From a virus: a stretch of 62,113 nucleotides of DNA. Position numbers and translations under genes: made by a program. The stretch spans positions 1 through 62,113 of IMG/VR virus record IMGVR_UViG_3300005617_000198; one strand, written 5' to 3'. The notes under the pieces are model-generated. The model did not search any database, had not been told where the DNA came from, and saw nothing but the letters and a program-made list of their open reading frames with translations. Positions 9,049 through 40,463 of this stretch are shown piece by piece; the stretch's first letter is position 1, and each line of letters begins with the position of its first letter.

Positions 9049-9081
9049 TGGTCGGCAATCGAGCGCGAAAAAGAGTCGAAC

Positions 9082-9770: not shown

Positions 9771-9886
9771 CTTTACATCTTGTCGGTGACCGGGGTTGCA
9801 ACTCCGCGCGATTGGCTCTCCAGGGTCAGCAAGTCACCGACAGGGATCAAGGAACTGGAGAGAAATTCAAACTGGAGAGAAAAGCA

Positions 9887-13807: not shown

Positions 13808-13811
13808 AGGG

Positions 13812-13985: not shown

Positions 13986-14848
13986 GCCGGCGCCTTGACA
14001 TCGGAATAGCCAGTTATGGAACCGACCCAGCAAAACTCCAACGCGCTGTCGAGTCGCTTCAGAGCCGCAGCGTCACGGATTGGAGATGTTTTCTTGTACA
14101 CAACCCGAGTCCCGGCGACGAGCGCACGCGCGAGGCGATCTGCGGCATGCAGGCGAGGGATTCGCGCATCGTGCCGGTCTGGATGCCGGAGAACGTAGGC
14201 TATGCCGGAGCGGTCAATGAACTGTTCCGGCGAAGCGAGACGGAGTACACGGCCTACCTCGACAATGACGCGACGGTTAAGACTTCCCATTGGGATGAGG
14301 AGCTGTGCGGATACCTTGACCGGTTTCACGAGATCGGCATGGTATTTCCTAACGGCGGCTCTTACCCGATCAACCGTGGCAACTATCTCGAAGTGCTTTG
14401 GGGCGTCGGCTTCTGTTGGATGGTCACGCGGCTCTGCATGGCGGATGCGGGGCAATTTGACGAATCGCTGGGGCATCAAGAGGAAGCCGACTACTGCCAG
14501 CGCGTTCGCATGGCTGGCTACAAGTGCGCAGCGGTCCCCGGCATTCAGGTTGAACACGACGCGACCGCCACAAGTAACCCGGCCAGCATCGAGCGGATCA
14601 ACCGCGGCGTGGTCCGGTGGGTCGATCGCTGGAATAAATATTTCAATGGAAAGAACTTCAATTATCACTCGCCGAACGTGACGCGCTTCGAGGATTGGCC
14701 GCCGAATGCCCTTTACCTTGAGGAGTACTGGAAACTCCGGCTGCCCATGTTGAACGATGAACCGGAAGTTATCACAGTAGAGGATCGGGAGTACGACCTG
14801 ATCAGGGTTCCGCGCTTCAAAGGCTTTTACCGCTCTCGAATCATTTAG
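13982..14848 (+). CDS. Family 2 glycosyltransferase (288 aa), TTG start
   Basis: LDIGIASYGTDPAKLQRAVES at the start, PENVGYAGAVNELFRR and TAYLDNDATV (metal site) near residue 90, then GFCWMVTRLCMADAGQFDE and QEEADYCQRVRMAGYKC are standard rhamnosyl/GT2 features. TTG 13982 sits in a TTGA overlap with the preceding microprotein. An upstream ATG at 13967 is possible but would not follow the coupling rule. Confidence 0.85.
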   Translation: MSRRLDIGIASYGTDPAKLQRAVESLQSRSVTDWRCFLVHNPSPGDERTREAICGMQARDSRIVPVWMPENVGYAGAVNELFRRSETEYTAYLDNDATVKTSHWDEELCGYLDRFHEIGMVFPNGGSYPINRGNYLEVLWGVGFCWMVTRLCMADAGQFDESLGHQEEADYCQRVRMAGYKCAAVPGIQVEHDATATSNPASIERINRGVVRWVDRWNKYFNGKNFNYHSPNVTRFEDWPPNALYLEEYWKLRLPMLNDEPEVITVEDREYDLIRVPRFKGFYRSRII

Positions 14849-14850
14849 TC

Positions 14851-15051
14851 ATGTGGAAAATCAGTTGGGTCGATAGGTTCAGAGGCTTCTTGTGGCTTCC
14901 ACCATCAAAAGCAGAAATTCAGAGGCGGATGCAATACATTGAGGTTGGCGGTTCGTGGCCTCCAATGTCCTATCCGATCCACAAGGGTGGACAAGTGCCG
15001 CCATATCCCGCGCCACCGCCGCCAATTCCACCGCCACCACCAAAGAAATAA
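14851..15051 (+). CDS. Proline-rich small protein (66 aa)
   Basis: An aromatic/basic N-terminal part followed by a proline-rich tail, with a run of prolines near the C-terminus. It starts two bases after the previous stop and ends three bases before the next start. No family recognised. Could be a flexible adaptor; moderately sure it is coding. Confidence 0.5.
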   Translation: MWKISWVDRFRGFLWLPPSKAEIQRRMQYIEVGGSWPPMSYPIHKGGQVPPYPAPPPPIPPPPPKK

Positions 15052-15054
15052 GTC

Positions 15055-15840
15055 ATGCCCATCATTGGCCTGTTAAGGGTGCGCAACGAAGCGCGCTGGA
15101 TTGATTCCGTGGTTCGCGCGATCCTGCCCGTCTGCGAACGGATCCTAATCCTGGACGACAAGTCGGACGACGCTACGCCGCAAATTTGCGCCGCGATCCC
15201 GCGCGTCACGGTGTTCCGATCCGATGCGAGTTCGTGCAACGAATCTGACGACAAGGATTGGCTGCTGACGCAAGCCTTCGCCTATGTGCCAGAGATGTAC
15301 AGACGTGGCAACCCCGAGTCGCCATGGTGGGGGCTGCTGATCGACGGTGACGAAGAACTGATGCCGGATGATCTGCCGACGGTTGCCGCGATGGCCGAGA
15401 GTGACGCGCACGCCTTCAGGTTCCGCATCCCTTATCTCTGGAACGATGAGAACACAATCCGAGTTGACGGGGTCTACACGCACATGGCGCAGGTCGGGCG
15501 GCCGTCGATGTTCCGGCTCATGAACGAGCGCTTTCGGTTTCAACGCACTCGGTTCGGCAGCAGCGGTCAGAATTTCCACTGCAGTTCTGTCCCTCAGGAA
15601 ATGCTCCATCACGCCCGGTCGTCCACGGCGCGGCTCAAGCACTGGGGATACATGCACGCGGAGGATCGGATCCGGAAGTATCACTGGTACAACCAGCACG
15701 ATGCCAACAACGCGACAGAGGATTGCTATCGGCACATGGTAATCGGGGACCTGTTCCCTGCCGAGAGTCGCTTCGTTCACGCGGGCCCGCTGCAACTTGA
15801 GCCGCTCATCAGAGGAGATCAATGTCGTTCGGCAGCCTAA
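15055..15840 (+). CDS. Family 2-like glycosyltransferase (261 aa)
   Basis: PIIGLLRVRNEARWIDSVVR followed by ERILILDDKSDD and WGLLIDGDEEL (DGDE metal site, about residue 97) define the GT-A fold of the SunS/benzoyl-like GT2 group. The C-terminal part carries WGYMHAEDRIRKYHWY. It is the last gene of the glycosylation island and overlaps the first head-tail connector gene by 19 bases, so the island is cotranscribed with the virion genes. Confidence 0.8.
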   Translation: MPIIGLLRVRNEARWIDSVVRAILPVCERILILDDKSDDATPQICAAIPRVTVFRSDASSCNESDDKDWLLTQAFAYVPEMYRRGNPESPWWGLLIDGDEELMPDDLPTVAAMAESDAHAFRFRIPYLWNDENTIRVDGVYTHMAQVGRPSMFRLMNERFRFQRTRFGSSGQNFHCSSVPQEMLHHARSSTARLKHWGYMHAEDRIRKYHWYNQHDANNATEDCYRHMVIGDLFPAESRFVHAGPLQLEPLIRGDQCRSAA

Positions 15841-19276: not shown

Positions 19277-22078
19277 ATGAGTTCATTAGGGGACCTTTTT
19301 ATCACAGTTGGCGCGGACATCGCTAATTTCCGTACAGCGATGGGCGACGTTAACGACGCGCTCAAGCAATCCGCCCGTGAGGCCAAATCTGCGTCCGCCG
19401 GCTGGTCCGAGATGTTCGGCAATATGCAGCGAATAGGAGCGGGGCTGACGGCCGCGGTCACGGTTCCTATTGTCGGAATCGGTGTCGCTGCTGTCCAGAT
19501 GTCCGAGCAGATAAATATGGCGCGCATGGGATTCACGACCATGCTCGGGAGCGCCGAAAAGGCCGGTGACTTTCTCGAAAAGTTGAAAGCGTTTGCCGCC
19601 TCTACCCCGTTTGAATTCCCCGATCTGCTCATTGCGGCCAGACGCATGACGGCGATGGGCTTTTCTGCGGAGCAAGTAATTCCCATGCTCCGCACGATTG
19701 GGGATGCTGTGGCAGCAGTAGGAGGCAACGCACAGACAATCGACAGGGTTACGCTCGCCTTTGCGCAAATGCAAGCTAAGGGTAAGGTTTCAGCACAGGA
19801 GATGAATCAACTTGCAGAAAGTGGTATCAAGGCGTGGGAGTTTCTAGCGAAGTCTATTGGGAAAAGCGTGCCTGAAGCAATGAAGCTAGCCGAGAAAGGA
19901 GCTATCTCAGCGAGCATTGCGATCCCCGCCATTCTTGCCGGAATGCAGGAAAAATCAAAAGGGCAAATGGAGTTGATGAGCAAAACGCTGACGGGCGTCT
20001 GGTCCAACTTTGCCGAGAAGTCAAAATTTGCGCTCGCCGATATAGGAAATACTCTTACCCCGATCCTGACTAATCTTGTCAAAGACGTTGCGATGCCATT
20101 GCTCGAATGGGTGAAGGATCTGACGGGCGCTTTTGCAAAGCTCGATCCAGGCACGCAAAAAACAATCCTTGGATTCACTGCGTTGGCTGCCGCTGCGGGA
20201 CCTTTATTGTTGGTTGTGGGCACGCTTGGGCAAGCTTTTGTGTCGGTCACGAATGCGGCGCGAATTATGGGTATCACCATGTCCGGACTGATGTCCTCGA
20301 TCCCTTGGGTTGCCCTCGCAGCTTCTGTGCTCACGCTGGCAAAGGCCATGTATGACTTGCACGCCGCTGAGGATGCGCTGGCTAAGTCGGGGGACGATCA
20401 AGCGCGGTCCATCGCCAAACTCGAAGCGCATCTGAGAAGCCTTGGCATTGCGCTACCTGAAGTGTCCAAGTTCTATCGCGACGGAACGATGACCGGCGAG
20501 ATGTACACCAAGCACTTGATCGCCCTCGCAAAGGCTCACGGCGATACCGTCGAAGTTACCGAAAAGCACAAGGATGCTCAACTCAAACTCACCCAGTCCG
20601 CCGAGGAAGCGGCGAAGGCCCTGAAGCACGCTGAATCTGTCCTGGGCGTTTCCAAGATCAACACCGCGGAAGCGACCTCCGCCTACAACCTACTTCACGC
20701 CGCTTGGAATGCTGGGAAGATAACCTCAATCGAGCTTCAGAAGGCATACGATGCGCTCCAGCAGCGCTTGGTGGCCGCTGGCAAGGCCGTAATCGCAGAA
20801 GTTACTCCCGCATGGATCGCGCTCGGCCAGGCGCAGGAGAAGGCGAAGGCAGGCACGCAGGCCATGCTGACGGCTATCGCGGATTGGGTGAACGCAGGAG
20901 AAACCTGGGGAAAGAAAATTCAACTCGCGACCATCGCCCACAACGACCTCGGATACAGCATGAAGGGCTCGAAACTTGAAGCGGCGGACCTAGCGGAGGC
21001 GCTGATGGTGCTCTCCGGCAAGTACCCGAAGGTCGAGCAGGCGGCTGTAGACATGAACAAGGCCATCAAGGGCGGCATCGTCGAGACGGCCGCCATCATG
21101 CGCAGCGTTGGCGTCAAGAGCCAAGAAGAATACCGGACAGAGGTCACAAAGTTGGAGCGGGCACTAAAGGATGTGCAGGCGCTTCAGCAGCAAGGCAAGG
21201 CTACTTCGATGGACGTGGCGCGCGTAGAAATGGCGCTTCTGCGGGCTCGAATCGAGGCGCACGACGAACTGACGGAAGCGGAGAAGAAACACTACCAACA
21301 GTTGAAAATCATGCTCGATCCGGTGAAGGCGCTCGATTCGGCGTACCGGACGATGTTGAACTCGATCAAATCCGCCTTCAAGCAACTTGAAGACGATGTG
21401 GCCCGAGGCATCGCCCGGTCGATTGTGGAAGGCGAGAACCTCGGCAAGGCGTTCAAGAATATCCTGAAGAACATCGCCGAGGACATCATTACAATTCTCA
21501 TCAAGGGTGCGCTCGCAGAGCTTGTTCAGGCGATTACTGGCGTCAGCGGCGGGCTGGCGGGAATCTTCGGCGGGGGAGCCAGTGCGGCTGGGGGCGCAGC
21601 AACGGCGGCCGGTGGGGCTGCTACATCGGCGGCGGGCGGTGTTGCCTCGACGGCAGGCACTGCGACAGGCGCGGCCTCGACGGCTGTAGCGAGTAGCTTG
21701 TCTGGCTGGATCGGCGCAATCGGCAGCGCCGCGACTGCCGTTTCTTCAATCATCGGCAACTTCCAGTCGATGGCCATGAACAAGTCGCTCGATCTGATCG
21801 AGAAATCAACCCGCTTCTCCGAAATCTACCTGTATTCGATCTTCGAACAGTCCCTGAAACAATGGCCGAAGCTCGATCATCTGGTTGACATTTGGGGGGC
21901 TATCCTGGACCTGCCTGAGCGTTTGCAATGGCAGTTCTCTGGCGGCTTCGCTGGAGTCACGGCGGCCGGCGGCGGCGGCGTCACCTTTCAGATCAACGGT
22001 GGATACTTTCTCAGCAGCCGGGCACTCGACGAGTTCATGGATGAAGTAGTGCGACGGCTGAAGCAGCGCAACGCGTAA
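19277..22078 (+). CDS. Tape measure protein
   Basis: 933 aa. The N-terminal block (SLGDLFITVGADIANFRTAMG) and the tape-measure domain (MARMGFTTMLGSAEKAGDFL; TPFEFPDLLIAARRMTAMGF) are diagnostic. Two hydrophobic stretches around 300-350 and an Ala/Gly-rich segment near 770-810 follow. It sets tail length; at the usual 0.15 nm per residue the tail would be about 140 nm. Contains long helical coiled-coil parts and no obvious peptidase domain. Confidence 0.95.
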   Translation: MSSLGDLFITVGADIANFRTAMGDVNDALKQSAREAKSASAGWSEMFGNMQRIGAGLTAAVTVPIVGIGVAAVQMSEQINMARMGFTTMLGSAEKAGDFLEKLKAFAASTPFEFPDLLIAARRMTAMGFSAEQVIPMLRTIGDAVAAVGGNAQTIDRVTLAFAQMQAKGKVSAQEMNQLAESGIKAWEFLAKSIGKSVPEAMKLAEKGAISASIAIPAILAGMQEKSKGQMELMSKTLTGVWSNFAEKSKFALADIGNTLTPILTNLVKDVAMPLLEWVKDLTGAFAKLDPGTQKTILGFTALAAAAGPLLLVVGTLGQAFVSVTNAARIMGITMSGLMSSIPWVALAASVLTLAKAMYDLHAAEDALAKSGDDQARSIAKLEAHLRSLGIALPEVSKFYRDGTMTGEMYTKHLIALAKAHGDTVEVTEKHKDAQLKLTQSAEEAAKALKHAESVLGVSKINTAEATSAYNLLHAAWNAGKITSIELQKAYDALQQRLVAAGKAVIAEVTPAWIALGQAQEKAKAGTQAMLTAIADWVNAGETWGKKIQLATIAHNDLGYSMKGSKLEAADLAEALMVLSGKYPKVEQAAVDMNKAIKGGIVETAAIMRSVGVKSQEEYRTEVTKLERALKDVQALQQQGKATSMDVARVEMALLRARIEAHDELTEAEKKHYQQLKIMLDPVKALDSAYRTMLNSIKSAFKQLEDDVARGIARSIVEGENLGKAFKNILKNIAEDIITILIKGALAELVQAITGVSGGLAGIFGGGASAAGGAATAAGGAATSAAGGVASTAGTATGAASTAVASSLSGWIGAIGSAATAVSSIIGNFQSMAMNKSLDLIEKSTRFSEIYLYSIFEQSLKQWPKLDHLVDIWGAILDLPERLQWQFSGGFAGVTAAGGGGVTFQINGGYFLSSRALDEFMDEVVRRLKQRNA

Positions 22079-22173: not shown

Positions 22174-23379
22174 ATGTCATTCTCACCAGCCTTCGCGGTC
22201 ACAATCGGAGGGACTTCTCCTGTTCAGGAAATCGGCATTTCTCCTGATTCTCTGAATGTCCATCAGGTCCTGAAGCAGCGCTCGACGTGTGAGTTTCGCG
22301 TTCCGGATACGGAAGCGAGCATCCTGATAGAAGAAGGACGCGAGGTTCTGGTCTATGACGACCTGGGGGCGCGGATCTTCGCTGGAACGATTGACGAGGT
22401 GGGGCTGCAAGTTCAGCCTGGCGCCGGTCGGATTGAGCGGTTTTTTGAAGTGCGCTGCATCGACTTCAATCAGTTGGCGGACAAGCGATCCGTTGGCGAG
22501 TATACCTGGACGGATACTGCGATTGGCCAGATCGTCCGGGACATCGTTTCCCAGTCGATGGACGGAGACGGAGTCAATATTGACGGCGTTCAGGATGGCC
22601 CTATTATTCCACTGTTCCAGACCCTTTATGGAACCTGTGCGGAGGCATTCACGGAACTCTGCAAGGTGGCGGCGGCGCTCATCAGTTCGCCGGCAAGCGG
22701 TCTCGACGGATTGGAGTGGCAGTGGTTCATTGACTACGACCGCAAACTGCACTTCTTCGCTCCGGGTTCTGTGACCCCTATTGTCGAAATGGTCGGGGAT
22801 GACCCGGACGACCTGTTCACAGCAGAGCCCACGCTCGCCACAATAGACCTGACGGCAGACGATTTCAAGGCTGGAACCCTGCGTGTGCGTGTAACGCGCG
22901 AGCGGTACGCCAACAAAGTCGTCGCACTGTTCAATGGTGAAGTTGCGGTCGCTTTTGACGAAGTCGAGATCGCGGCCAGGACCGTCATCGAGGGCACCAG
23001 CGGGATTTACGAGAAGGTTTTTAAGTTGGACGACAGGACGGTAATCACCACTCTCCAGGAGTATGCCGACGCACAACTGGCAAACCTCAAGGAAATGTCC
23101 AGGGTCCTGAATGGATCCACTCAGCGGAAAGACTTACGTGTGGGGCAAACGGTCTATATCGGTGCGGCAGGATACGGCGAGGCTCCGTCCCCTGACGTCT
23201 CATTCCCTTATCTAATTCGATCTATCACTATTCGCGACGAGCGGGCAACGGTCCTGTGGAGGGACATCGAAGCAATCGCCGGGCCACTGACGCTCGATTA
23301 TGTGGAGTGGATTCGGGAACTGCGCGGCTCATCTTCAAGCGTAGCTGTTGACGACCTGGGGGTGATCGCCTATGCCTGA
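22174..23379 (+). CDS. Tail hub / baseplate protein
   Basis: About 401 aa. GTSPVQEIGISPDSLNVHQ, then EGREVLVYDDLGARIFAGTIDE, LADKRSVGEYTWTDTAIGQI and the C-terminal DLRVGQTVYI resemble baseplate hub (gp27/gp44-like) proteins. ATG 22174 overlaps the stop of a 31-codon frame (22079-22174; TGATG). The alternative start at 22093 or 22102 would add a hydrophobic signal-like leader ending SPAFA, unexpected for a virion hub; I prefer 22174. Confidence 0.75.
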   Translation: MSFSPAFAVTIGGTSPVQEIGISPDSLNVHQVLKQRSTCEFRVPDTEASILIEEGREVLVYDDLGARIFAGTIDEVGLQVQPGAGRIERFFEVRCIDFNQLADKRSVGEYTWTDTAIGQIVRDIVSQSMDGDGVNIDGVQDGPIIPLFQTLYGTCAEAFTELCKVAAALISSPASGLDGLEWQWFIDYDRKLHFFAPGSVTPIVEMVGDDPDDLFTAEPTLATIDLTADDFKAGTLRVRVTRERYANKVVALFNGEVAVAFDEVEIAARTVIEGTSGIYEKVFKLDDRTVITTLQEYADAQLANLKEMSRVLNGSTQRKDLRVGQTVYIGAAGYGEAPSPDVSFPYLIRSITIRDERATVLWRDIEAIAGPLTLDYVEWIRELRGSSSSVAVDDLGVIAYA

Positions 23380-25864
23380 TTACGCCCAGGCGGTAACTCG
23401 CAGGAACTGGGAGAAGCATGGGGAGCGCGTCTCGGTTTTTGACTTCGGCGCGAAAGCCGACGCCGCTCTAGTCCTGGACGGCGCGATCAACAACGGCAGC
23501 ACTACATTCACATCCGCAATAGCCGATTTCACCGAAGCGGATGTCGGCAAAATTATCTGGATAGAGGGGGCAGGCGTTCCGAGTGGTTCTTATACGCAGA
23601 CTAAGACCCAAGCAACTACTTCGGCTCAAGACCTGTTGACGACCATCGTATCCGTCAACAGTCCAACCAGCGTGGAAGTGGCGGATGCGGCCAGCGCGGA
23701 TGTATCTAACATCGAAGCCCGCTGGGGGACGGACAGTACACTTTCCATACAAAAAGCCTTTGACGAGGCTATGAACAAAGGTATCCAGATTGCCTTCCCG
23801 CGAGGGAAGTATCTCACTACCGACTCCATAACGCTGCGCAGCGATCTATCCATCAGCGGAGAAGGGTATGTCTACACGTCCTGGAAAACAAATGCCGCTT
23901 CGATGGTGATGTGCTGCGCCAACGTGCCCGTGATGCAATCTTTGGGCACGACAGAGGAAACCGGCCTTTCAAACATTAACATCTCCGGCCTTACGTTTAG
24001 AGGAACTCCTCGCCCTGGCTCAAAAGGGGTCTACTCCGCGTTGACACTGGGCGCGTCGATTAAACACTGCGCATTCTCGATCTTTGGAGACCAGGCCCTT
24101 TTCCTCGACAGTCACGGCATATTTGGAATTCACGTTCATGACTGCTCGGCCACGGACTCCTGCCTTGTGGACGATAGAACGGACTATGTAGGGTGCTTTG
24201 AGTTTGGCCCCAGCGATCTGTTTATTGCGCGTCTTGAATCGGCTGGCCCCGGCCTTTTCTGGGGACCCGGTCTTTACGGCAGTGGCAAGATTGCGGGCAT
24301 AAAAGTAAGCGGCAACAACTCCTGGGTGTCGGACTGCATGGCGGCAGGGTCTCAGATTGGATTCCACATTGGAGCAGCCAGCCCTGTAGTTCAGCTAACA
24401 ACTACGCTAACGAATCTCCGGGCGGATCAGAATCAAGGCCACGGGTTTGTTGTTGATCAGAATAGCTGGTCGTGCCACTTTATCGGCTGTCGCTCCCACA
24501 ACAACGGTTTGGACGCCGACGCAACCTATGACGGCTTTCACGTGGAGACTGGAACGCACCAGTTCACGGGCTGCCAGGTAACCAAGACTCCCGTCCCACT
24601 CGATCATCCCACTCAAGGATTCAATTTCAAATACCGGGATTGCTTCCACCTGAATGCAGGGTCGGATATCTACGAGCCGAGCAAATTTAATCTGTGCTTT
24701 GTCGGAGACGCCTACGTCGGGGATCGATTGAGCGTAGGAGGAGGTCGTCCTGACCATCTCTACACCAGGGACATCTACCATTACGAGGGCCTCACCAGGA
24801 AGCCAGTCGTTCTCTCCACCACCAACCATCCCGCCACGGATAAAGACGACTTCACGGTCGGGATGCAATTCAACGCGAAGGAGGACGCAATTTTCTTCGA
24901 GGCGGCTGATGGCGATGCGGACACGCGAACTTGGGCGATCGGGGCAAATGTTCTTCCAGGACAGCCCAACACTTTCGGGCTCGTCGCGCTTAACGATGAT
25001 AGGGATTCGGCGATCGTTCCATTGGCGTTTTATAGAAATCTGACCACTGGCCTGATCGACTACATTATCTGGAAAGACAGCGGCGGGATTTATATCGAAG
25101 ATTCCGTCGCCTTTCTGGATCTCAACACCTATCTGTCATTGAAAAAGGGAGTGTTTTTTGTCAAAGAAGATGCGGCGGTCGATGAAAAACGGTGGACGTT
25201 CGGGCCTGGGGCCGATGACGGCACCACGGGATCAGGGCAATTTTTAGCGTCGTTGTTCAATGACGCCACCGATGCCGCGGCGCCTTGGTTGATTGTAAAT
25301 AGGTCTGGTATCAATCCGATCAGCATCAGGCTAACGGCGACCGACATCACGCTTGACGGGAACCTGCGGCTGGACAGCGCTGGGACAGGGACGGGGGGCG
25401 TGGCTGCTCTCAATCGAATAAAGTTCCTGCATAACAACCTGGATATCTGCACCGGCTCGGGAGATCCAAATGGAGAAATCACGGCCAATCCAGGGTCAAT
25501 GTTCTTGGCTGCAACCGGCGAGATATGGATCAAGAGAGCGGGCAGCGGCAATTCTGGATGGGAGAAAGAACTTTCCGCTCCCAGTTCGCTGCCTGGGAAC
25601 TCCATAGTCAGAACGGATGGAGGCGGCAACATTACTACCGGAGCCGTGGATTTGTCTTTGTCAACAGACGTTATCAACACCCTGGGGCTCACCCATGGAG
25701 GGCTCGGAGCGACTACGGCAGCGGGAGGTCGCATTACACTAGACGTGTACAGCAAGTCCGATGTGGACGGCATGATCGCTGCCATCTACACAGCTATTGC
25801 CGGCAAGGCTACTGCCGGAGCGGCTACAGGCACGTCAGCCGGCCACTCACATACTCAAACTTGA
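23372..25864 (+). CDS. Tailspike with right-handed beta-helix (830 aa)
   Basis: FDFGAKADA near residue 24, IQKAFDEAMNKGIQIAFPRGKY and repeated short strand rungs through about residue 430 (GLSNINISGLTFRG, IKHCAFSIFGDQALFL, FIGCRSHNNGLD) are typical of pectate-lyase-like helices in tailspikes that bind or cut capsule or LPS. The last 250 residues are a beta-rich trimerisation-like part ending in a collagen-like or S74-free tail (GHSHTQT). No signal peptide, unlike the downstream genes. Overlaps the hub gene by eight bases. Confidence 0.85.
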   Translation: MPDYAQAVTRRNWEKHGERVSVFDFGAKADAALVLDGAINNGSTTFTSAIADFTEADVGKIIWIEGAGVPSGSYTQTKTQATTSAQDLLTTIVSVNSPTSVEVADAASADVSNIEARWGTDSTLSIQKAFDEAMNKGIQIAFPRGKYLTTDSITLRSDLSISGEGYVYTSWKTNAASMVMCCANVPVMQSLGTTEETGLSNINISGLTFRGTPRPGSKGVYSALTLGASIKHCAFSIFGDQALFLDSHGIFGIHVHDCSATDSCLVDDRTDYVGCFEFGPSDLFIARLESAGPGLFWGPGLYGSGKIAGIKVSGNNSWVSDCMAAGSQIGFHIGAASPVVQLTTTLTNLRADQNQGHGFVVDQNSWSCHFIGCRSHNNGLDADATYDGFHVETGTHQFTGCQVTKTPVPLDHPTQGFNFKYRDCFHLNAGSDIYEPSKFNLCFVGDAYVGDRLSVGGGRPDHLYTRDIYHYEGLTRKPVVLSTTNHPATDKDDFTVGMQFNAKEDAIFFEAADGDADTRTWAIGANVLPGQPNTFGLVALNDDRDSAIVPLAFYRNLTTGLIDYIIWKDSGGIYIEDSVAFLDLNTYLSLKKGVFFVKEDAAVDEKRWTFGPGADDGTTGSGQFLASLFNDATDAAAPWLIVNRSGINPISIRLTATDITLDGNLRLDSAGTGTGGVAALNRIKFLHNNLDICTGSGDPNGEITANPGSMFLAATGEIWIKRAGSGNSGWEKELSAPSSLPGNSIVRTDGGGNITTGAVDLSLSTDVINTLGLTHGGLGATTAAGGRITLDVYSKSDVDGMIAAIYTAIAGKATAGAATGTSAGHSHTQT

Positions 25865-25917: not shown

Positions 25918-26349
25918 ATGAAAACAGTAATCCTCCTTGCCGCCCTCTGCGCGGCCGCACTGCTCTCACAGACCAAGCAAGACCTGGGCAACAGGGCGCT
26001 CCGGGGCCCGTTGGTCTGGGTGCTCGACTCTTCAGGTGTGCCGGTTGCCGCGAATCTGGACAACGCCACGCTTGCGCTCGATCCGCCCGGTACGTCGGGC
26101 GGCCGGCCCACCTTGCGGGCGGTGATCCCGTCCATTGCGCCTGCAGTAATCAAGCAGCGGGTTCTCACTGTGACGTATACCGGCGTACCAATCGTGCTCC
26201 CGAGCGCCCCGGCAGCGAATATGCCCGTGACCGTTTTCTGGGGGCCCTTATACCAAAGGCCAACCGAGTATTCGGTTAGCGGACGAACGGTGACGATGGC
26301 TGCTGGATTCGTCGCCGGGGATGAGTTGACCTTTATATGGTTCGAATAG
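25918..26349 (+). CDS. Secreted protein of unknown function (143 aa)
   Basis: The N-terminus MKTVILLAALCAAALLSQ is a Sec-type signal peptide (Lys, then 14 hydrophobic residues). The mature part is beta-rich (GPLVWVLDSSGVPVAANL; VLTVTYTGVPIVLP; VAGDELTFIWFE). ATG 25918 overlaps the stop of a 13-codon frame (ATGA). First of the run of exported proteins behind the tailspike. Confidence 0.65.
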   Translation: MKTVILLAALCAAALLSQTKQDLGNRALRGPLVWVLDSSGVPVAANLDNATLALDPPGTSGGRPTLRAVIPSIAPAVIKQRVLTVTYTGVPIVLPSAPAANMPVTVFWGPLYQRPTEYSVSGRTVTMAAGFVAGDELTFIWFE

Positions 26350-26837
26350 TAGTTCTGCTTGTCTGTGCTGTGGCGTCGGGACAGACTTTCCTGGAGCCTA
26401 ACGCTCTCAATCGGGCAAGCGAGATCGGCATCCGTCCGGACTTCTTCAGTCACTGTGCAAATGGATCGAGCGCGTATCTCGGAACCGTGCGAGGGAACCA
26501 AGCCGAGATGCGGCAGGTACGCCATTACGGCTTGTGGATAGACGGCAAAATTCTCAATCTATGGCGTCCGTCTGAAGGGCCGTTGTCGATTACGATGCGA
26601 TCCGCGGTCTCCGGATCAATAGCGTTGCGGTACGCATTACAGACTCCAAATTTCAATCTGATCGGGATCGAACTGGCGGATGTAAGGATCAGCGGCGGCG
26701 GCTGGGCGATGAGTTCGGCGGGTCGATTCAGCGGCCCTGCGCTGGCCAAGGTCAAAGTGTTGAACGGAGAATTCGTCTCGATAGATGCGCATGCGCATGC
26801 GACGGCATGCGACAGTTACCGGGATATCCGGGAATAG
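26337..26837 (+). CDS. Secreted protein of unknown function (166 aa)
   Basis: Signal peptide MVRIVVLLVCAVASGQTF; cleavage probably after SGQ or nearby. The mature protein is beta-rich and contains two cysteines. It overlaps the preceding gene by 13 bases, so the two are translated together. No family recognised. Confidence 0.6.
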   Translation: MVRIVVLLVCAVASGQTFLEPNALNRASEIGIRPDFFSHCANGSSAYLGTVRGNQAEMRQVRHYGLWIDGKILNLWRPSEGPLSITMRSAVSGSIALRYALQTPNFNLIGIELADVRISGGGWAMSSAGRFSGPALAKVKVLNGEFVSIDAHAHATACDSYRDIRE

Positions 26838-26877
26838 CCTCTTCAAAGCCCTTCCAAAAACAAAAGGAAATACGTCC

Positions 26878-27375
26878 ATGACTAAACGCTTGGCATTCAT
26901 TGCCGCGATTATTTTGTTTTCTTTCGCCCAACCGGCGCGCGCCGATTCTTTTCTCTGCCGCATCTTCGGGATCGGCTGTCCGAACCCGAACGCACTACCG
27001 CCTTTCGTTCCGAAGTATGAGCAAAACGTATTGCTCATCAGCCCATTCAAGCCTCCGACTCCGCTGAACGAGTGGTACTTTGCCACCGCGGAGACTGCGG
27101 AAGAAGTCTGCAGGCGCCTCGAATGCCAAGCCGTCCGCACCCGGCCGGAGTGCAGCATGGGCGGTGCGCCGAATACGTGCACCTCGCCTGAGAGAGAAAT
27201 CGCGTTCGTGGATATCATCCGCAACGCCGGGATTTACGCGAGTTATTGGACCCGCAACCCGGAGAATGAATTTCCAGGGCTTGCCCTGAAGTTGGCGAAG
27301 ATGCAACTCGCCGCGGAACGGAACCAGCAGAAGAAGTCTATCAGGCTGGCTAAGGCGCGGGCCCGCATTCGATAA
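26878..27375 (+). CDS. Secreted Cys-rich protein (165 aa)
   Basis: MTKRLAFIAAIILFSFAQPARA is an excellent Sec signal with an ARA cleavage site; AAAGGAAA lies upstream of ATG 26878. The mature part has about seven cysteines (CRIFGIGC; CRRLEC; CSMGG; CTSPE), probably disulfide-bonded in the periplasm, and a basic C-terminal helix. Function unknown. A role in lysis or cell-envelope change cannot be excluded. Confidence 0.7.
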   Translation: MTKRLAFIAAIILFSFAQPARADSFLCRIFGIGCPNPNALPPFVPKYEQNVLLISPFKPPTPLNEWYFATAETAEEVCRRLECQAVRTRPECSMGGAPNTCTSPEREIAFVDIIRNAGIYASYWTRNPENEFPGLALKLAKMQLAAERNQQKKSIRLAKARARIR

Positions 27376-27388
27376 ATCGGAGCACACC

Positions 27389-27775
27389 ATGAAAACCATT
27401 CTGATTCCACTCATCGCCGCCGCGCTGGCCATAGCCGCTGAGAAAGCGCCGAAGACCCCGGATCCGACGCCGGCCGCGCCAGTACTCACCGCAGTGCAGA
27501 AACTGAAACTCCGGGACGCGCAGGTGCTTGCAATCAGCGCGGAAAAGAAATTCTCGGATTACATGCAGACCATCCAGCGACAACTTGACTCGCTGCCTGA
27601 ATATCAGAGCGCCAAGAAGAATCTGGAAACGACTACTAAGGCGTGGCAAGCCGCGATCATCGAAGCGCGTGAGGTCGTGAAGTGCCCTGACTGCGATCTG
27701 AATCCAGAGACGCTGGCCCTGACGCGACCTGTCCCGAAGCAAGCAAAAGTCGAAACGGAAAAGCCAAAGCAGTAG
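27389..27775 (+). CDS. Secreted helical protein (128 aa)
   Basis: Signal peptide MKTILIPLIAAALAIAA followed by a Pro-rich linker and a coiled-coil-like domain (KLRDAQVLAISAEKKFSDY), with a CPDC pair near the C-terminus. Size and layout recall a periplasmic spanin-type or adaptor protein, but no lipobox is present. Function not established. Confidence 0.6.
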   Translation: MKTILIPLIAAALAIAAEKAPKTPDPTPAAPVLTAVQKLKLRDAQVLAISAEKKFSDYMQTIQRQLDSLPEYQSAKKNLETTTKAWQAAIIEAREVVKCPDCDLNPETLALTRPVPKQAKVETEKPKQ

Positions 27776-27804
27776 CGCTTTAAGGCAATTGGAACTATCC
27801 CACA

Positions 27805-28512
27805 ATGTCAGCGCCCCACTACGCCGAACTCCCGACGGCAAGTCGCCACTACATCGACGAAGCCAGTTGGAACGCGATCAAAAGCCGGTTTGATAGCCTC
27901 GGGCAAACGGGCCTGCCGGCCTTCTCGGCGTTACCAAGCACGACAAAGCCTTACATCAACCAGCCTAGCTGGGATGCGCTAGTGGACGAAGTGGGCTTGT
28001 TGGGAGGGATTTCAGGCAGCGATGTGCTGACCTTTTCTGTAATCGCTGATGGCGCGAGTCAAGCTCTAACCTTTGCGCTCATTGGAGCGGTCATCGGTGA
28101 TCAGGTCATCCCGTCCTGGCCGTCCACGCTAGAGGCTGGGCTGTTCGGGACGATGCGGGTGAGCGCCGCTGACACGATTGAAGTGAGGCTCGCCAACCTG
28201 ACTGGCGCGAACGTGACACCGGCGGCCGGACAGACCTTTGGTGCCACCGTGGGTATCGGAAGCGGCCTGACAACAGCGCCGCTGACCTTCGCAGAAATCC
28301 CAGACGGTGGAATTGGAGTGGGCACGTTTACGCTTCCCGGCGCGACTGTCGGGCAGAAGGTAGCGCCCGTTTGGCCGTCCACACTTGAAGCCGGGCTGCT
28401 CGGCATGATGCGGGTGAGCGCCTCAAATACAATCGAAGTCCGACTGGCGAACTTAACGGGCGCGAACATGACGCCAGTAGCCGCGCAAGTTTTCGGCGCC
28501 ACTGTTTTCTAA
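27805..28512 (+). CDS. Fibre-like protein with two tandem domains (235 aa)
   Basis: Has no signal peptide. After a helical N-terminus (YIDEASWNAIKSRF and YINQPSWDALVDEV, an internal repeat), two copies of a roughly 70-residue beta domain follow, each with WPSTLEAGL, MRVSA, TIEVRLANLTGAN and FGATV. The duplication is about 80 percent identical by eye. Likely a virion appendage or secreted adhesin; the only non-secreted member of this block. Confidence 0.6.
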   Translation: MSAPHYAELPTASRHYIDEASWNAIKSRFDSLGQTGLPAFSALPSTTKPYINQPSWDALVDEVGLLGGISGSDVLTFSVIADGASQALTFALIGAVIGDQVIPSWPSTLEAGLFGTMRVSAADTIEVRLANLTGANVTPAAGQTFGATVGIGSGLTTAPLTFAEIPDGGIGVGTFTLPGATVGQKVAPVWPSTLEAGLLGMMRVSASNTIEVRLANLTGANMTPVAAQVFGATVF

Positions 28513-28525
28513 AAGGAAAATACCC

Positions 28526-30529
28526 ATGAAAATACTACTCTCCATCCTGTTGGTCGCTTCGACGGCGTTCGGGCAGGGTCGCATCGTTCGGGCGAATGGC
28601 GTCAATGCGCAGACCGGAACAACCTACACTTATCTCACCGGAGACTTCGGCAAGATAGTCACTCACAGCAACGGTAGCGCGATCGCCGCGACCCTTCCTC
28701 AAGCGAACAGCACAACGTTTCATTCCGGATGGATGGTGGACGTACAGGTCATCGGGGCCGGCACACTGACGATCACGCCCACCACCAGCACGATCAACGG
28801 CGCGGCGACTCTCGTGCTTACCTCGGGGCAGGGCGCTCATATCGTCAGTAATGGCACGAACTACACCGCCGTGCTTGGGAAAGGGGGCGGCGGTGCCGGG
28901 GACCTTTTGGCGGCCAACAATCTGTCCGACGTGTCGAATGCGGGAACGGCGCGGACCAACCTTGGCCTTGCCATCGGGACGAACGTGCAGGCGTATGACG
29001 CTACGCTGCTCAGTGTCGCCGCCCTCGGCACGGCCGCCGATAAGATCGCCTATACGACCGGCGTAGACACTTGGGCAGAGACCGCCATCACGTCATTCGG
29101 CAGGTCGCTTATTGACGACGCGGCGGCGTCGAACGCGCGGACAACGCTCGGGCTGGTGATCGGAACCGATGTGCTGGCTCCCACCGGAACCGGCGTCGGT
29201 CTGACAGCGCTTCCAAAGCAGGATATCACGGATGCGCCGGCCTTTTGTTCCGACGCTGGCTCGAACGATACCTACGCCTGCTCCCTTTCACCTGCGATTA
29301 CCGGGTATGTGACTGGCACCCATTACCGCTTCAAGGCCAATACGATCAACACTGGAGCCGCGACGATCAATCTGAACTCTCTAGGCGCAAAAACGATTGT
29401 GAAGGTGGCAGGCGGTATCACCACGGCCCTTGCTGACGCCGATATCCGCGCCGGCCAGTGGGTGGATGTGGTCTACGACGGCACCAACATGCAGATGCAG
29501 AGTCTACTGGGGAATGCGCCATCAGGGTCCGGCACCCCCGGCGGCTCGAACACGGAACTCCAGTACAACAATGCTGGAGCTTTTGGCAGCGTTACCAAGT
29601 TCACCACCAACGGTACAACGACCATCACCGGCATCGCGACCTCCGTTCTCGACATGAGCCTCGGGGCCATCACCCCGCCGGCAGCGTTCGCCGGAACCGG
29701 ACTGGTCACCTCAGGCAATTCCCTCGCCCTCGACACCAGCTACACCGGAACGAACTTCGCCCGCGTGAATGCTGCCTCTGCCTACGGGGCTTTCTTGCAG
29801 GACTTCTCTCTAGCGAGCGTGAGAATGCCTAGCGCTGTTGGATTCACCAGCACGACCGCCAATGATCTCTCATATCAGTCCGTGCTGAATGTCTACATGT
29901 ATGGCAACGGCAGCGCGACTCATACGCTGGCTCGGTCAGCAGGAGCGCTCACCGCAACCAGAATGATCTTCGCTGGCACGGCAGGCGTGCTTTCCGACGA
30001 TGCTGACTGTACATTTGCTACCGACACTCTAACTTGCACAAAGATTATCGGATCAACCTCAATCACCGACAGCGGTCTCACCGCTACCCGTATGGTGTTC
30101 GCGGGGACTGGCGGCCTATTGTCGGATGACGCCGACTGTACTTTCGCAACGGATACTTTGACTTGTACTAAGTTGGTCGGTTCTACCTATGTTTCAGGGC
30201 CGGTGGATCTCACGACTGGAACCTCGAAGACCTTCTCTTTGGCCTCTGGCTACTTTGAATGCACAGGTACCTGCACAATCACCATGCCCGTTCCGGCAGC
30301 GGGTAAGCAGTACTGCGTCCGCAACGCCAACAACGTCGCCACGGTTATCACGTTCGCCGCGATTGGTTCGAGTGCGATGTATGAGAATCAAGCTGGAACG
30401 GCTTACGGAACAGCGGGAACAGGAACCCTTGTTTCAGGCGGCGCGGCAAGGGATCAAGTGTGCTTGGTCGGGAAAGACTCAACCCACTATGACATCTTCA
30501 GTGTCAACGGAACCTGGACGGTGAACTAA
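28526..30529 (+). CDS. Tail-fibre-like protein with signal peptide (667 aa)
   Basis: MKILLSILLVASTAFGQ is a Sec signal. The body contains phage-fibre style repeats (LLAANNLSDVSNAGTARTNL; LSVAALGTAADKI) and a C-terminal tandem repeat of about 43 residues with TATRM, FAGT, LSDDADCTFATDTLTCTK. Fibre repeats normally occur in cytoplasmic virion parts, so the signal peptide is unexpected. AAAGGAAA precedes the ATG. Confidence 0.75.
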   Translation: MKILLSILLVASTAFGQGRIVRANGVNAQTGTTYTYLTGDFGKIVTHSNGSAIAATLPQANSTTFHSGWMVDVQVIGAGTLTITPTTSTINGAATLVLTSGQGAHIVSNGTNYTAVLGKGGGGAGDLLAANNLSDVSNAGTARTNLGLAIGTNVQAYDATLLSVAALGTAADKIAYTTGVDTWAETAITSFGRSLIDDAAASNARTTLGLVIGTDVLAPTGTGVGLTALPKQDITDAPAFCSDAGSNDTYACSLSPAITGYVTGTHYRFKANTINTGAATINLNSLGAKTIVKVAGGITTALADADIRAGQWVDVVYDGTNMQMQSLLGNAPSGSGTPGGSNTELQYNNAGAFGSVTKFTTNGTTTITGIATSVLDMSLGAITPPAAFAGTGLVTSGNSLALDTSYTGTNFARVNAASAYGAFLQDFSLASVRMPSAVGFTSTTANDLSYQSVLNVYMYGNGSATHTLARSAGALTATRMIFAGTAGVLSDDADCTFATDTLTCTKIIGSTSITDSGLTATRMVFAGTGGLLSDDADCTFATDTLTCTKLVGSTYVSGPVDLTTGTSKTFSLASGYFECTGTCTITMPVPAAGKQYCVRNANNVATVITFAAIGSSAMYENQAGTAYGTAGTGTLVSGGAARDQVCLVGKDSTHYDIFSVNGTWTVN

Positions 30530-30530
30530 C

Positions 30531-31073
30531 GTGCCACTAAAAGCATTTATCGTATTTTTGGCCTCTGTATGTTTGCCTGCGCAGATTCTAGCGCCTATTA
30601 CGGGCGGTCGTCTAGCCGCTGGCAGTTCAACGCCTTCACTAGTAGCGTCCGTATCCGGCGGTACGCCGCGAAATAACGCCGATCTGCTTGTAGGAGCGAA
30701 GGTCACCATCGGCGGATCTAATGTCGTCGTCACGAACATAGGACGGTGGTGTATTTCTGGTAACTCCGCAACGCACGCCCTGAAAATTCTGGCAGGATCA
30801 AATGCAGCGGAATTAGCCACGGTAAACGTAAACATGACTGGCTGCACGCCGGGAACATTCAAGTACGTCGCCTTATCTTACACAATGAATGCTTCGACCG
30901 CTTATTATCTCGCCTCCGAGGAAACTAACGGTGGAGACCAGTGGCTCGATGACGACAGCACGGTGACCCTTACTGCCGCTGCAACTCTGAATAGCTCTGA
31001 GTATGGGGCGGTTCTTTCTATGACCACGCACACAGCAGGGAAATTTTACGTTCCTGTGAGCGTTCAATACTGA
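30531..31073 (+). CDS. Secreted beta-rich protein (180 aa), GTG start
   Basis: Signal peptide MPLKAFIVFLASVCLPAQ. The mature region (SLVASVSGGTPRNNADLLVG; GRWCISGNSATHALKIL; STAYYLASEETNGGDQW) is strand-rich and resembles a carbohydrate-binding or jelly-roll module, which is only a resemblance. It starts two bases after the fibre gene stop. Confidence 0.65.
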   Translation: MPLKAFIVFLASVCLPAQILAPITGGRLAAGSSTPSLVASVSGGTPRNNADLLVGAKVTIGGSNVVVTNIGRWCISGNSATHALKILAGSNAAELATVNVNMTGCTPGTFKYVALSYTMNASTAYYLASEETNGGDQWLDDDSTVTLTAAATLNSSEYGAVLSMTTHTAGKFYVPVSVQY

Positions 31074-31075
31074 CC

Positions 31076-33853
31076 ATGAGAACACTATTGCTTTTCTTTG
31101 CAGCGACGGCTTTTGCCGCGCCAGTCCCAATCGTCAAGAACCAGTTCTACCGGCTTCCTGTCGGCAAGAACTATTTCACCGTTTACCAGTCCACCGACAC
31201 GTCCAGTTGTACCAGTTCTTCAAATCCCCAGCGCGTCAACCTTCCCTCTGGCTGGACTCGCGCAAAGGTTCAGTTCCAGCAGGATTACAACACCACGAAT
31301 ACGACCGTTGACAGCGCTGACCCCGCCGAGTTCTGCTTCCCGTTCACGCAGGCAAGCGGGGCGCAGTATGGCGGCATCCGATACGTGTACGGGCAACTTG
31401 ATGGCAGCAACAACCTCGTTGGGGTTCTGAGTGATCAGACCGTCATAGCGATTCCCCAAGCGCTACAGACCGGCACGATCACCTTCCCTCAGACGATGGT
31501 GGGCTTCCCTGGCCTAGAGAAGTCGATCTCCTACAATATTCCGAGCGGCACACTGACAGGCACAACGGCTGCGTACTTCCAGGTGAACAACTATTCTTAT
31601 TTTGGGAAAGGTTCCTGGAAGGTCAACAACAGCCCATGGCGCACGTTTGAATCGTGCCTAGATCAAACAACTCTGGCGACCGGCATAAACAGCACCACGC
31701 GCACCATCGTGGTTGCCGATGCGACGTGGATACCAGTCCCAAACTACATCTACATTACCGATGTCGATACCGGCCTGAGCGAGCAGATTCATATCGCCAG
31801 CAAAGTCGGGAACACGCTGACCGCTGATGCCGTGTGGAGAACTCAGCAAGGCACCGGGCGAGGTTATGGCAGCGTTCAGGACAATCTCGGCGTGGCTCAC
31901 TCATCGGGAGCCATCATCACCTTGGCAAACCTGCAAATGTTATACGGTGGCGTCGGCGGAGGGTTCAATACGCTAAAGTTCACCTGCGCCCTACCAGCCG
32001 GAACCCTCACACTCGGGGCCAATACTATCTCCATGCGGTTCGATAATTTGCTGGACGATTCTAGTGGCTTCCGGGTTATCAAGATTGACCTGTTGAGTGC
32101 AGCCGGGACCGTTCTACAGGATACGACCATCGCGCAGGAAGATCCTTCAACGTGGACTGCGCCGGCAGGTAGCGATGTAACCCGCGGATTGACGGCCTGG
32201 ACCACTGCGGCGCTCAAGAGGCCAAGCGTGCCTGGATACAGCAGCGCCGTCTTCTGTAAGGATTGTCACGCCGTCGATGGCAGGGATCTGAAGTACTTCG
32301 CCTACTCCCCTACTGCTATTCAAGCTCGCGCTCTCCTTCATGACCTGACTCAGCAACAGGCGGACGATATAAGCGCATATATCTTAAGCAACGCTTCGCC
32401 AGTGTGGGGCCGTCCCTGGAACCCTCCCTACCAACCCGGTCCTGGCCTAAGCGCTCTCAGCACGGCTAAATGGGCCGGCGGTGCACCTGATGGAATAAAC
32501 GCCGTGCTAGACCGCGACAGGGACATGTTCGGCTATCTAATGTCCCCCTACGACGGCACCGGCACAATCACCGATGCCCATGCCGTGAGTGCCTTCGATC
32601 CCACGGTTGCCATGAACCCCCACGATATTCCGTTAGCTCTCCAATTCCCGGACTGGAATCATTGGCTTCCGCGCATTCACCCGATCGACGCTTGGGGATC
32701 GGCCTGGACATCCAGCGCGAATCCGACCAATTACGCCGCTATCCGCTCTGCGATCACGCCGGGGTCATGCGCTTCTTATGCCAACTCAACCAACCAAGCT
32801 CTATGGGATGCCTTCGCAGCGGGTATGGATACGTGGCTTCAGATCACTTTACCGGCGACTGGAACGCAAGGCAATCCCAGACTGCAATCCAAAGTCTATA
32901 GCAACGGACTATGGGAACTGGTGAAGACTTGGGAAATTATGCAGGAGTACGGGCTGGAAGGCTGCTATCAGACGGTGTACGCCACTCCGCTCTCGACGCA
33001 AACACGCGGCTGGAGAATCCTGCGGGTGCCGTTCGATATGTCTCCCAATATCCAACACTCCGTTGTCAGCGCATCTTTGTGCGGAAACCCGTGCAATATG
33101 CGCGGGGCGTACTCGCCGAATCTGAAAATCCCTCAATACACTCTGCACAATTACATTTCCGCTATCTGGTACAACGTGCAGCTAATGATTGCTACCAACA
33201 ATAAACATGTCAGCGGGCAGTCTCCGCAAGATTGGAGCTACCTGCAAGACTTCCAGTGTGCCAACATGCAGTACCTATCCCCTGGCCAGGCCGGAAACTG
33301 CTTCTTGTTCTACGCTCAACTGTTGCGAACGATGTACGGGAACTCCAGCAACGTCACACCGACCAGCGCAGCGGCTGGCCCAGAGATAGGCCCGGGTGGT
33401 GGATACGTGGCGGCGGACATCGAAGTGCGCTTACTTCAACCCAGCTACAACCGCTACATCTTCCAGGACATGACAGACGGCGAAGTGGCCTCACTGTTCT
33501 ACGGTCTTCTCACAAACATCAATACCCAAAATGCCTCGTATACCAATACCCAATGGGGCGACGGAGCAACGGCCTCTCCCGGAAATATAGAGCCCAGGGC
33601 TACCAATGTCCATTGTGCGGGGAACGGAAATGGCGGGGCACAGTGGCCCTCCCGGTTCATGTGGTGGCTCACAGGGATTCAGTACTTTGGCACGGTCGCC
33701 TCTCACGCCTTGATGCCGACAGCCATTTCCAACGCGATTACCTGGGCGGCAGGAGTGTGGACTGGGACGGACTTTACCAAAATCAACACAACAGGTAACG
33801 GATATCTGAGCGGGTCCTACGATGTGCAGGTACAGAACTACTGCGTGCCTTGA
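31076..33853 (+). CDS. Secreted multidomain protein with c-type cytochrome motif (925 aa)
   Basis: Signal peptide MRTLLLFFAATAFA. Residues 20-380 are beta-rich modules without known family. CKDCH at 394-398 (32255-32269) is a C-x2-C-H haem attachment site, followed by LTQQQADDISAYIL, the C-terminal helix pattern of class I cytochrome c domains. The last 480 residues contain many Trp/Pro and several Cys, ending NYCVP. Haem c is attached in the periplasm, so the signal peptide and the motif agree. A phage copy of this kind is new to me. It starts two bases after the preceding gene. Confidence 0.75.
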   Translation: MRTLLLFFAATAFAAPVPIVKNQFYRLPVGKNYFTVYQSTDTSSCTSSSNPQRVNLPSGWTRAKVQFQQDYNTTNTTVDSADPAEFCFPFTQASGAQYGGIRYVYGQLDGSNNLVGVLSDQTVIAIPQALQTGTITFPQTMVGFPGLEKSISYNIPSGTLTGTTAAYFQVNNYSYFGKGSWKVNNSPWRTFESCLDQTTLATGINSTTRTIVVADATWIPVPNYIYITDVDTGLSEQIHIASKVGNTLTADAVWRTQQGTGRGYGSVQDNLGVAHSSGAIITLANLQMLYGGVGGGFNTLKFTCALPAGTLTLGANTISMRFDNLLDDSSGFRVIKIDLLSAAGTVLQDTTIAQEDPSTWTAPAGSDVTRGLTAWTTAALKRPSVPGYSSAVFCKDCHAVDGRDLKYFAYSPTAIQARALLHDLTQQQADDISAYILSNASPVWGRPWNPPYQPGPGLSALSTAKWAGGAPDGINAVLDRDRDMFGYLMSPYDGTGTITDAHAVSAFDPTVAMNPHDIPLALQFPDWNHWLPRIHPIDAWGSAWTSSANPTNYAAIRSAITPGSCASYANSTNQALWDAFAAGMDTWLQITLPATGTQGNPRLQSKVYSNGLWELVKTWEIMQEYGLEGCYQTVYATPLSTQTRGWRILRVPFDMSPNIQHSVVSASLCGNPCNMRGAYSPNLKIPQYTLHNYISAIWYNVQLMIATNNKHVSGQSPQDWSYLQDFQCANMQYLSPGQAGNCFLFYAQLLRTMYGNSSNVTPTSAAAGPEIGPGGGYVAADIEVRLLQPSYNRYIFQDMTDGEVASLFYGLLTNINTQNASYTNTQWGDGATASPGNIEPRATNVHCAGNGNGGAQWPSRFMWWLTGIQYFGTVASHALMPTAISNAITWAAGVWTGTDFTKINTTGNGYLSGSYDVQVQNYCVP

Positions 33854-33875: not shown

Positions 33876-34109
33876 CTACCGAAGGGTTCGCCACGCGCCG
33901 TCAGGTTCTTTGAATGGGCCACCGTAAAACGTTCCGTCGATACTTAGATACCATCCATCGTGCCGTTTTATTGCTTTCGCAATTCTTATGGTTCCCGAAC
34001 CGTCTACATATTGCTTACCGTTCTTATCCCAAGTTAAAACTTCCGCAGTTCTGTTGGCGCAAGAAGTGGAGACTATCGTCAGCGCCGCAGCGAGTAAAGT
34101 CCTGACCAT
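33876..34109 (-). CDS. Small lipoprotein (77 aa), candidate superinfection-exclusion factor
   Basis: MVRTLLAAALTIVSTSCANRT has a positively charged start, a hydrophobic core and a lipobox-like VSTSC with Cys17. The mature 60 residues are small and strand-rich (YVDGSGTIRIAKAIKR; GWYLSIDGTFYGGPF). GGAGGG lies nine bases before the ATG. It is transcribed against the late operon, directly behind the cytochrome gene, as expected for a lysogenic conversion gene. Function is inference. Confidence 0.6.
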   Translation of the reverse strand: MVRTLLAAALTIVSTSCANRTAEVLTWDKNGKQYVDGSGTIRIAKAIKRHDGWYLSIDGTFYGGPFKEPDGAWRTLR

Positions 34110-39517: not shown

Positions 39518-39717
39518 TCTCCGCCCTCCATCGCGTCGGCAACCGGGGAGCGCGCGGGCCGCCCGGTGTCGAAGTACCAGCGCGGCCATTCGAGCCGCGC
39601 GTTGAGGCGCTCGTTGCGCAGCCGGGTCACATCGGCTGGCTCCCGCACGCGCTGCCCGTCCACCAGGATCGTGCGCGGCGGCAGCGGGCGGGCGGGGCGC
39701 TCGGTGGGTTTCTTCAT
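39514..39717 (-). CDS. Small basic protein (67 aa)
   Basis: Arg/Pro-rich, with RTILVDGQRVREPADVTRLR. ATG 39717 forms ATGA with the TGT-like gene stop. ATG 39723 is an alternative. Function unknown. Confidence 0.5.
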   Translation of the reverse strand: MKKPTERPARPLPPRTILVDGQRVREPADVTRLRNERLNARLEWPRWYFDTGRPARSPVADAMEGGE

Positions 39718-40463
39718 CCCCATAGCGCGAGCCCTCTCTGAATGCCGCCTGTATTGATCCACCGCGTGGCCGATGCGTGAAACTCGATATTCTCTTTGAT
39801 CGAGAATGCCCGACCAGCGGATGTCTTGCAGGAACCGGAGCCGGTATGCTTTGTGTCCATGCCGACGTTCTGCGCGACATTTGTTGAGTCGGCGTACTTC
39901 AACGGCAATCGGCTGAAGATCGTTGGGTTAAGCATTCTAAGGCCCCACAGTTTTGCAAGCGGGAATCCGTCATCATCGCAGGCAACGTCCATCGCTTCCG
40001 CCATCCGACCCCACCAGCCATCCGTGCCTGGGTTGGGCCAGTCGCCACTGCTACCAATTGCAACAGTGTGAAACGTAGTCACAAGCCGTCGCAGTCGCCC
40101 AAGGTCTTCGTGCATGTGCCAGACAGGCGTGCCGAACTTGGCGACATCGAGACTCATCCACCATTCAACGAGTTCGTCGTTTTGCTTCTCCGTACCGTCG
40201 ATCACATCTGGTATCAGAGCTTGGTCGAAACTGGGATACCTGGAAATATCCGCAACCCATGCGGCGTAGTCTTCCCACTTCGGCTGTCCCTGTCCCTGCT
40301 TCCATTTCGTGAATGCGGAATTATCAGCCGCAAACGATTTCGCGTTGTTAATCGCTTCCTCAAGGCACTGCTGGTATCCCCAGGAAACGAGGGCGTGACC
40401 GCGCTTCCAAGCGTAGTACGCGGCTTCAACCGGCGTGATCGGCCCTCCGTGGTAGTGGATCAT
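39714..40463 (-). CDS. TGT/DpdA-like TIM-barrel protein (249 aa)
   Basis: Begins MIHYHGGPITPVEAAYYA. Conserved acidic motifs: AADNSAF at 45-51, IPDVIDG at 84-90, VWHMHEDLGRL, and YADSTNV near 190-196. This is a widespread phage family whose motifs recall tRNA-guanine transglycosylases and the DNA enzyme DpdA, which swap guanine for 7-deazaguanines. The Zn-ligand Cys set of bacterial TGT is not obvious. If the assignment is right, it may modify phage DNA to resist host nucleases; no preQ0 biosynthesis gene is present, so base supply would come from the host. GGGGGAG precedes the ATG. Confidence 0.5.
   Translation of the reverse strand: MIHYHGGPITPVEAAYYAWKRGHALVSWGYQQCLEEAINNAKSFAADNSAFTKWKQGQGQPKWEDYAAWVADISRYPSFDQALIPDVIDGTEKQNDELVEWWMSLDVAKFGTPVWHMHEDLGRLRRLVTTFHTVAIGSSGDWPNPGTDGWWGRMAEAMDVACDDDGFPLAKLWGLRMLNPTIFSRLPLKYADSTNVAQNVGMDTKHTGSGSCKTSAGRAFSIKENIEFHASATRWINTGGIQRGLALWG

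Follow-up and report, generated by a model that had tools for sequence, protein, structure and literature searches.

Signal-bearing fibre genes behind the tailspike of a temperate phage and a possible periplasmic route to the virion

The eight-gene block and its setting

The window analysed here is the whole of IMG/VR virus record IMGVR_UViG_3300005617_000198 (62,113 bases), which encodes a terminase, a portal, an HK97 capsid, a tape measure protein and an integrase. The phage, which came from soil, is temperate and siphovirus-like, and its host was probably acidobacterial. Directly behind its tailspike gene, at 25918-33853, lie eight consecutive open reading frames (ORFs), all on the plus strand and separated by gaps of 2-54 bases or joined by small overlaps. 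Seven of the eight start with a predicted Sec/signal peptidase I (SPase I) signal peptide, the gene at 27805 being the negative one. Such a run of exported proteins had been reported in an earlier note on this DNA, and it was confirmed here with a rule-based detector that evaluates n-region charge, an uncharged h-region and small residues at positions -3 and -1. The detector is heuristic; as background, it gave positive results for 6.7% of N-termini after shuffling and for 5 (2.7%) of 184 internal Met positions.

The first exported protein (25918..26349, 143 aa) displays the signal MKTVILLAALCAAALLSQ. The second (26337..26837, 166 aa), whose gene overlaps the preceding one, displays MVRIVVLLVCAVASG followed by Gln, and the third (26878..27375, 165 aa) MTKRLAFIAAIILFSFAQPARA followed by Asp. 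The signal of the third protein requires a start at 26878, upstream of which AAAGGAAA is found; a longer ORF from 26785 has no signal. In the fourth (27389..27775, 128 aa), MKTILIPLIAAALAIA precedes Ala and the cysteines (Cys) occur as CPDC. The sole non-exported member (27805..28512, 235 aa) consists of two Cys-free copies of a tailspike-type beta domain and is a possible virion-side adaptor. It is followed by the exported tail fibre (28526..30529, 667 aa), with signal MKILLSILLVASTAFG and then Gln. This protein matched PHROG tail-fibre families with E-values down to 1e-12, which supports the fibre-like nature already proposed for it, and its residues 238-336 form a virion tail-fibre domain with Cys241 and Cys252. 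Next comes a protein of 180 aa with a GTG start (30531..31073; MPLKAFIVFLASVCLPA, then Gln); a pattern search of viral contigs returned no relatives of it, and signal-bearing homologues occur in the exported blocks of loci L081 and L088. The block ends with a protein of 925 aa (31076..33853; MRTLLLFFAATAFA, then Ala). Its earlier description as cytochrome-containing is weak, since it rests on a single CxxCH (CKDCH, residues 394-398) and no family, of cytochrome c or any other kind, was matched in Pfam, NCBIfam or PDB. No relatives of this protein were found in viral contigs, in 12 locus genomes, in 396 Acidobacteriota genomes or, by sequence, in PDB, an empty answer that shows little. In gene order, the mature parts of the seven exported proteins contain 0, 2, 6, 2, 10, 2 and 14 Cys, all even numbers.

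Upstream of the block, and in the same direction, are found the tail length tape measure protein (19277..22078, 933 aa; PHROG 12798, E=2e-54), a tail protein of 401 aa (22174..23379) with distant relatives in L020 and L041, and a pectate-lyase-like tailspike of 830 aa (23372..25864; PHROG 32881, E=2e-15; Pfam PF12708, E=5e-6, just under the cut-off). The tailspike, which is the conventional virion spike of this phage, and the tape measure protein have no signal peptide; nor has the 401-aa protein if its start, which is uncertain, is MSFSPAFAV. A gene-order check thus placed the 667-aa fibre gene inside the tail module.

Signal-like starts were also observed elsewhere in the window. A 118-aa gene at 9887-10243 begins with MQTRRDLLKYFGIGTVITTASG, a twin-arginine-like signal; the exported block of L002 likewise has an RRKFI start upstream (gene 11494-12258). 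A 133-aa gene distant from the block (60883-61284) starts with MNRARFLALFGLLPFAAKG followed by Gln, and a small reverse-strand ORF adjoining the block's end (33876-34109) has the lipoprotein-like start MVRTLLAAALTIVSTSC.

Recurrence of exported fibres and their cysteine signatures

The domain of about 99 aa at residues 238-336 of the fibre is widespread. Its profile, A1, matched a solved virion tail fibre, gp47 of PDB 9b45 (E=5e-8), and tblastn found the domain in PB1-like Pseudomonas phages. The PB1-like fibre shares this domain with the 667-aa protein; it differs in that it was solved as a virion part, that the phage matches listed are below 60% identity and that signal-less homologues of the domain have no Cys pair. 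Scans of viral and genome contigs yielded more than 120 copies, with a bias towards signal-bearing ones since A1 was built from such copies. A signal peptide was present at the start of thirty-odd copies, usually within blocks of 2-7 signal-bearing genes, and signal-bearing homologues of the 667-aa fibre were found in about 30 other phage contigs. Neighbouring genes were signal-bearing in 59 of 175 cases (34%) at signal-bearing fibre loci versus 27 of 486 (6%) at signal-less ones (Fisher 9e-19). Among genomes with the fibre domain, all seven from Acidobacteriota had a signal-bearing copy, and none of 16 in a phylum-wide sample of Pseudomonadota did. The arrangement, which the earlier note had suggested seeking in related phages, thus recurs in many contigs.

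Several of these loci display clear phage gene contexts. In a prophage on an Acidobacteriota chromosome (L167), terminase, portal and major head protein are followed by the signal-bearing fibre and then the tape measure. Terminase and major head protein flank the block of L015; a major head protein (L004), a distal tail protein (L168) or a tape measure (L020) occurs near others, and in L076 a T7-type tail-fibre N-terminal protein lies directly upstream. The longest block seen comprises seven signal-bearing genes in a row, including a collagen-repeat protein (L101:7784-20270). Block proteins at other loci are built of adhesive modules (fn3, kelch, collagen, beta-helix, CBM). Four matches in Bacteroidota genomes (L047, L048, L051 and L052) were dropped from the phage set as they resemble chromosomal adhesins and are likely the host's.

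These four matches, together with the heuristic nature of the detector, could suggest that the observations stem from N-termini that are hydrophobic by chance, or from assembly errors that placed host adhesin genes in phage contigs. We consider such an artefact very improbable, given the recurrence in many contigs, in the L167 prophage with its terminase, portal, capsid and tape measure genes, and in the genomes of cultured phages.

A cysteine signature was found within the fibre domain. The Cys pair (FCSDAGSNDTYACSL) occurred in 21 copies, every one signal-bearing, whereas signal-less copies read FASDAG..YAATL, although this raw association overstates independence because the Cys-pair copies share one clade. 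L067 was counted among the signal-bearing copies, its signal being present although the start-distance rule had scored it as signal-less. L044 had appeared as a signal-less exception with the Cys pair and was ruled out, since its ORF with the correct start begins with a signal. Few trait switches are forced on the fibre-domain tree, which offers too few supported independent pairs for a correlation test.

The 27805-type domain, unrelated to the fibre domain, displayed a similar pattern, each repeat holding two Cys in almost every signal-bearing protein (L076, L027, L046, L101, L020, L015 and L071). No Cys was found at the pair positions of signal-less copies, namely both repeats of the 27805 protein, gene 13 of L015, L018 and L201; L202 holds a signal-bearing copy without the pair. 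The domain, which carries Cys when exported, is therefore Cys-free in the one non-exported gene of the block. In an AF2 model of a Cys-bearing copy (pLDDT 89), one Cys lies where a strand begins and the other where a different strand ends, a predicted placement that fits a disulphide. The best Foldseek match of this domain was the Klebsiella capsule depolymerase tailspike KP32gp38 (6tku; probability 1.0, E 2e-3), with a modest TM-score of 0.43. For a third Cys-pair motif, DDADCTFATDTLTC, homologues for comparison were not found.

Even Cys counts were observed in 54 of 71 mature exported proteins versus 67 of 157 proteins without a signal from these loci (p=3e-6), and in 21 of 32 versus 61 of 143 when one protein per family was retained (p=0.02). 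For Acidobacteriota host proteins the corresponding figures were 22 of 32 exported and 76 of 175 cytosolic ones. Gln occurred at or near position +1 in 45 of 89 exported block proteins. It was likewise found in 30 of 51 Acidobacteriota host signal peptides, a small sample from two genomes (L159-L166 and L182-L198) obtained with the heuristic detector. Gln+1 occurs in these host signals although the Q-rule has been described as Bacteroidetes-specific (PMC5837995).

The hydrophobic N-termini might instead remain uncleaved and serve not for export but as assembly or membrane-contact peptides of proteins that enter the virion from the cytoplasm. Large fibre trimers might already be folded ahead of export, and ordinary virion proteins would be consistent with the annotation of the Cellulophaga phages described below. 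Yet a Gln at +1 is relevant only after cleavage and occurs at 12 of 12 Cellulophaga sites and about half of the others, while Cys pairs and even Cys counts indicate an oxidising compartment, and we regard this alternative as improbable. As judged from sequence, export of the fibre-like proteins is strongly supported, on account of the signal peptides, Gln+1, the Cys pairs and the recurrence in other phages.

Virion evidence, related systems and other window genes

The closest known systems were found in cultured marine phages of Cellulophaga baltica. In phi18:3, phi19:1, phi10:1 and phi39:1, the tail operon ends in a run of 2-5 fibre, pectate-lyase or structural proteins, all bearing signals with SPase I sites. 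Eleven such proteins (phi18:3 gp085-087, phi19:1 gp101-102, phi10:1 gp091-094 and phi39:1 gp25-26) are annotated as virion structural proteins, tail fibres or pectate lyases from tandem mass spectrometry (MS/MS). Together with phi10:1 gp095, all 12 signals display Gln at the site; phi39:1 gp25 scored under the block threshold of the detector but reads MRKLILFFGLIFCLEMAA followed by Gln. The signal and the first 63-118 residues are conserved and the C-termini diverge, as expected from the sequences if an attachment module carried exchanged tips. These loci differ from those described above by their few Cys and by a Bacteroidota rather than a likely Acidobacteriota host, and the signals are unremarked in the records. 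With the same detector, no signal-bearing structural protein was found among 17 in the crAss-like phi14:2, among 10 in phi18:1 or in phi38:1, so that the feature does not extend to Bacteroidota phages in general. Virion membership of such proteins is thus shown in the Cellulophaga records alone, from which we infer it, by analogy, for the window phage.

A limited literature search on the export of phage fibres returned a single paper, on Porphyromonas gingivalis phages of the Nixviridae. These phages have genes with Sec signals that fit the Gln+1 rule of their host, like the blocks described here, but the genes are not linked to fibres or virions; five of them, of unknown function, were interpreted in that paper as potential modifiers of the cell surface (PMC10367356). 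The earlier statement that no such phage system had been described holds within this search, but the composition itself occurs commonly among environmental phages, and cultured phages also have it, although there it had passed without comment.

Three roles had been offered for the exported proteins: coating the lysogen, acting on neighbouring cells after lysis, or joining the virion outside the cell. The last is now favoured because of the MS/MS-annotated Cellulophaga equivalents. The proteins could nevertheless be exported and act off the virion, as adhesins of the lysogen or infected cell, as receptor plugs or decoys against superinfection or re-adsorption to debris, or on neighbours after lysis. 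The adhesive modules of block proteins elsewhere are in keeping with such roles, as are the presence of a signal-less tailspike in the window, the temperate nature of the phage (integrase) and the surface-modifier interpretation of the P. gingivalis genes (PMC10367356). The block, however, lies within the late structural cluster, packed with the tail operon, and is probably not a separate moron unit; promoters and terminators around it showed no excess over shuffled sequences, and the Cellulophaga counterparts are annotated as parts of the virion. Off-virion roles therefore appear rather unlikely, if less so than the two alternatives considered above.

Among the remaining genes of the window, a cluster between the capsid and tail genes (8314-15840) comprises glycosyltransferase-2 genes, a methyltransferase and an RmlD-like epimerase, and glycosylation of the virion or of the host surface is possible. 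A queuine tRNA-ribosyltransferase-like gene (PHROG 887, E=2.5e-50) was found at 39714-40463 and a DNA methyltransferase-like gene at 50526-51662.

A periplasmic route for tail fibres

The best explanation, which we hold to be reasonably probable, is that the fibre proteins undergo export, lose their signals and form disulphide bonds in the periplasm, and dock on the particles when the cell lyses. The block would be transcribed along with the late tail genes, and its products, bearing host-type Sec signal peptides, would cross the inner membrane. Signal peptidase I would then remove the signals, often exposing Gln, and the mature proteins would attain their disulphide-bonded fold in the periplasm, while heads and tails would be assembled in the cytoplasm as usual. 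Once holin and endolysin opened the cell, particles would meet ready-folded fibres, which would dock on the tail tip, perhaps via signal-less partners (the 27805 protein or the tailspike). For the window phage we infer cleavage, disulphide bonding, presence in the virion, where and when docking occurs, and the adaptor. In T4 and P22, fibres or spikes are able to attach last and outside the cell, as known from in vitro complementation.

Several observations weigh against a periplasmic origin of virion fibres. The conventional signal-less tailspike is also present, and the phage may therefore not require the exported fibres. No detectable similarity in sequence links the Cellulophaga proteins with the blocks described above, and sticky lysate proteins can turn up in MS/MS of purified particles. 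About 15 signal-bearing fibre copies have no Cys pair. All Cys-pair copies fall into one starred clade of 33 rows, of which 21 have both signal and Cys pair, 5 the signal without the pair and 7 no signal. Finally, a block member of L020 (11001-12317) has 13 Cys and no signal, and its homologue in L101 is signal-bearing.

Phages with tagged fibres may add them outside the compartment in which the rest of the particle is built. More generally, many phages of Acidobacteriota and Bacteroidota would finish their virions in two compartments, with a cytoplasmic particle on the one hand and, on the other, receptor-binding fibres that Sec would secrete and that, once cleaved and disulphide-bonded, would be stored in the periplasm until joined at or after lysis, a proposition whose chances we see as evenly balanced. 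Within the limits of our literature search, such a compartment-split route would be one not yet described for tailed phages, which in the textbook view assemble wholly in the cytoplasm. If true, virion completion would depend on Sec, signal peptidase, thiol oxidation and lysis timing across phages of whole host phyla. The annotation of fibres would change, a signal peptide being at present a ground for calling a phage gene a moron, and laboratory expression of receptor-binding proteins would be affected. It would also provide a new view of adsorption and superinfection in soil and marine phages.

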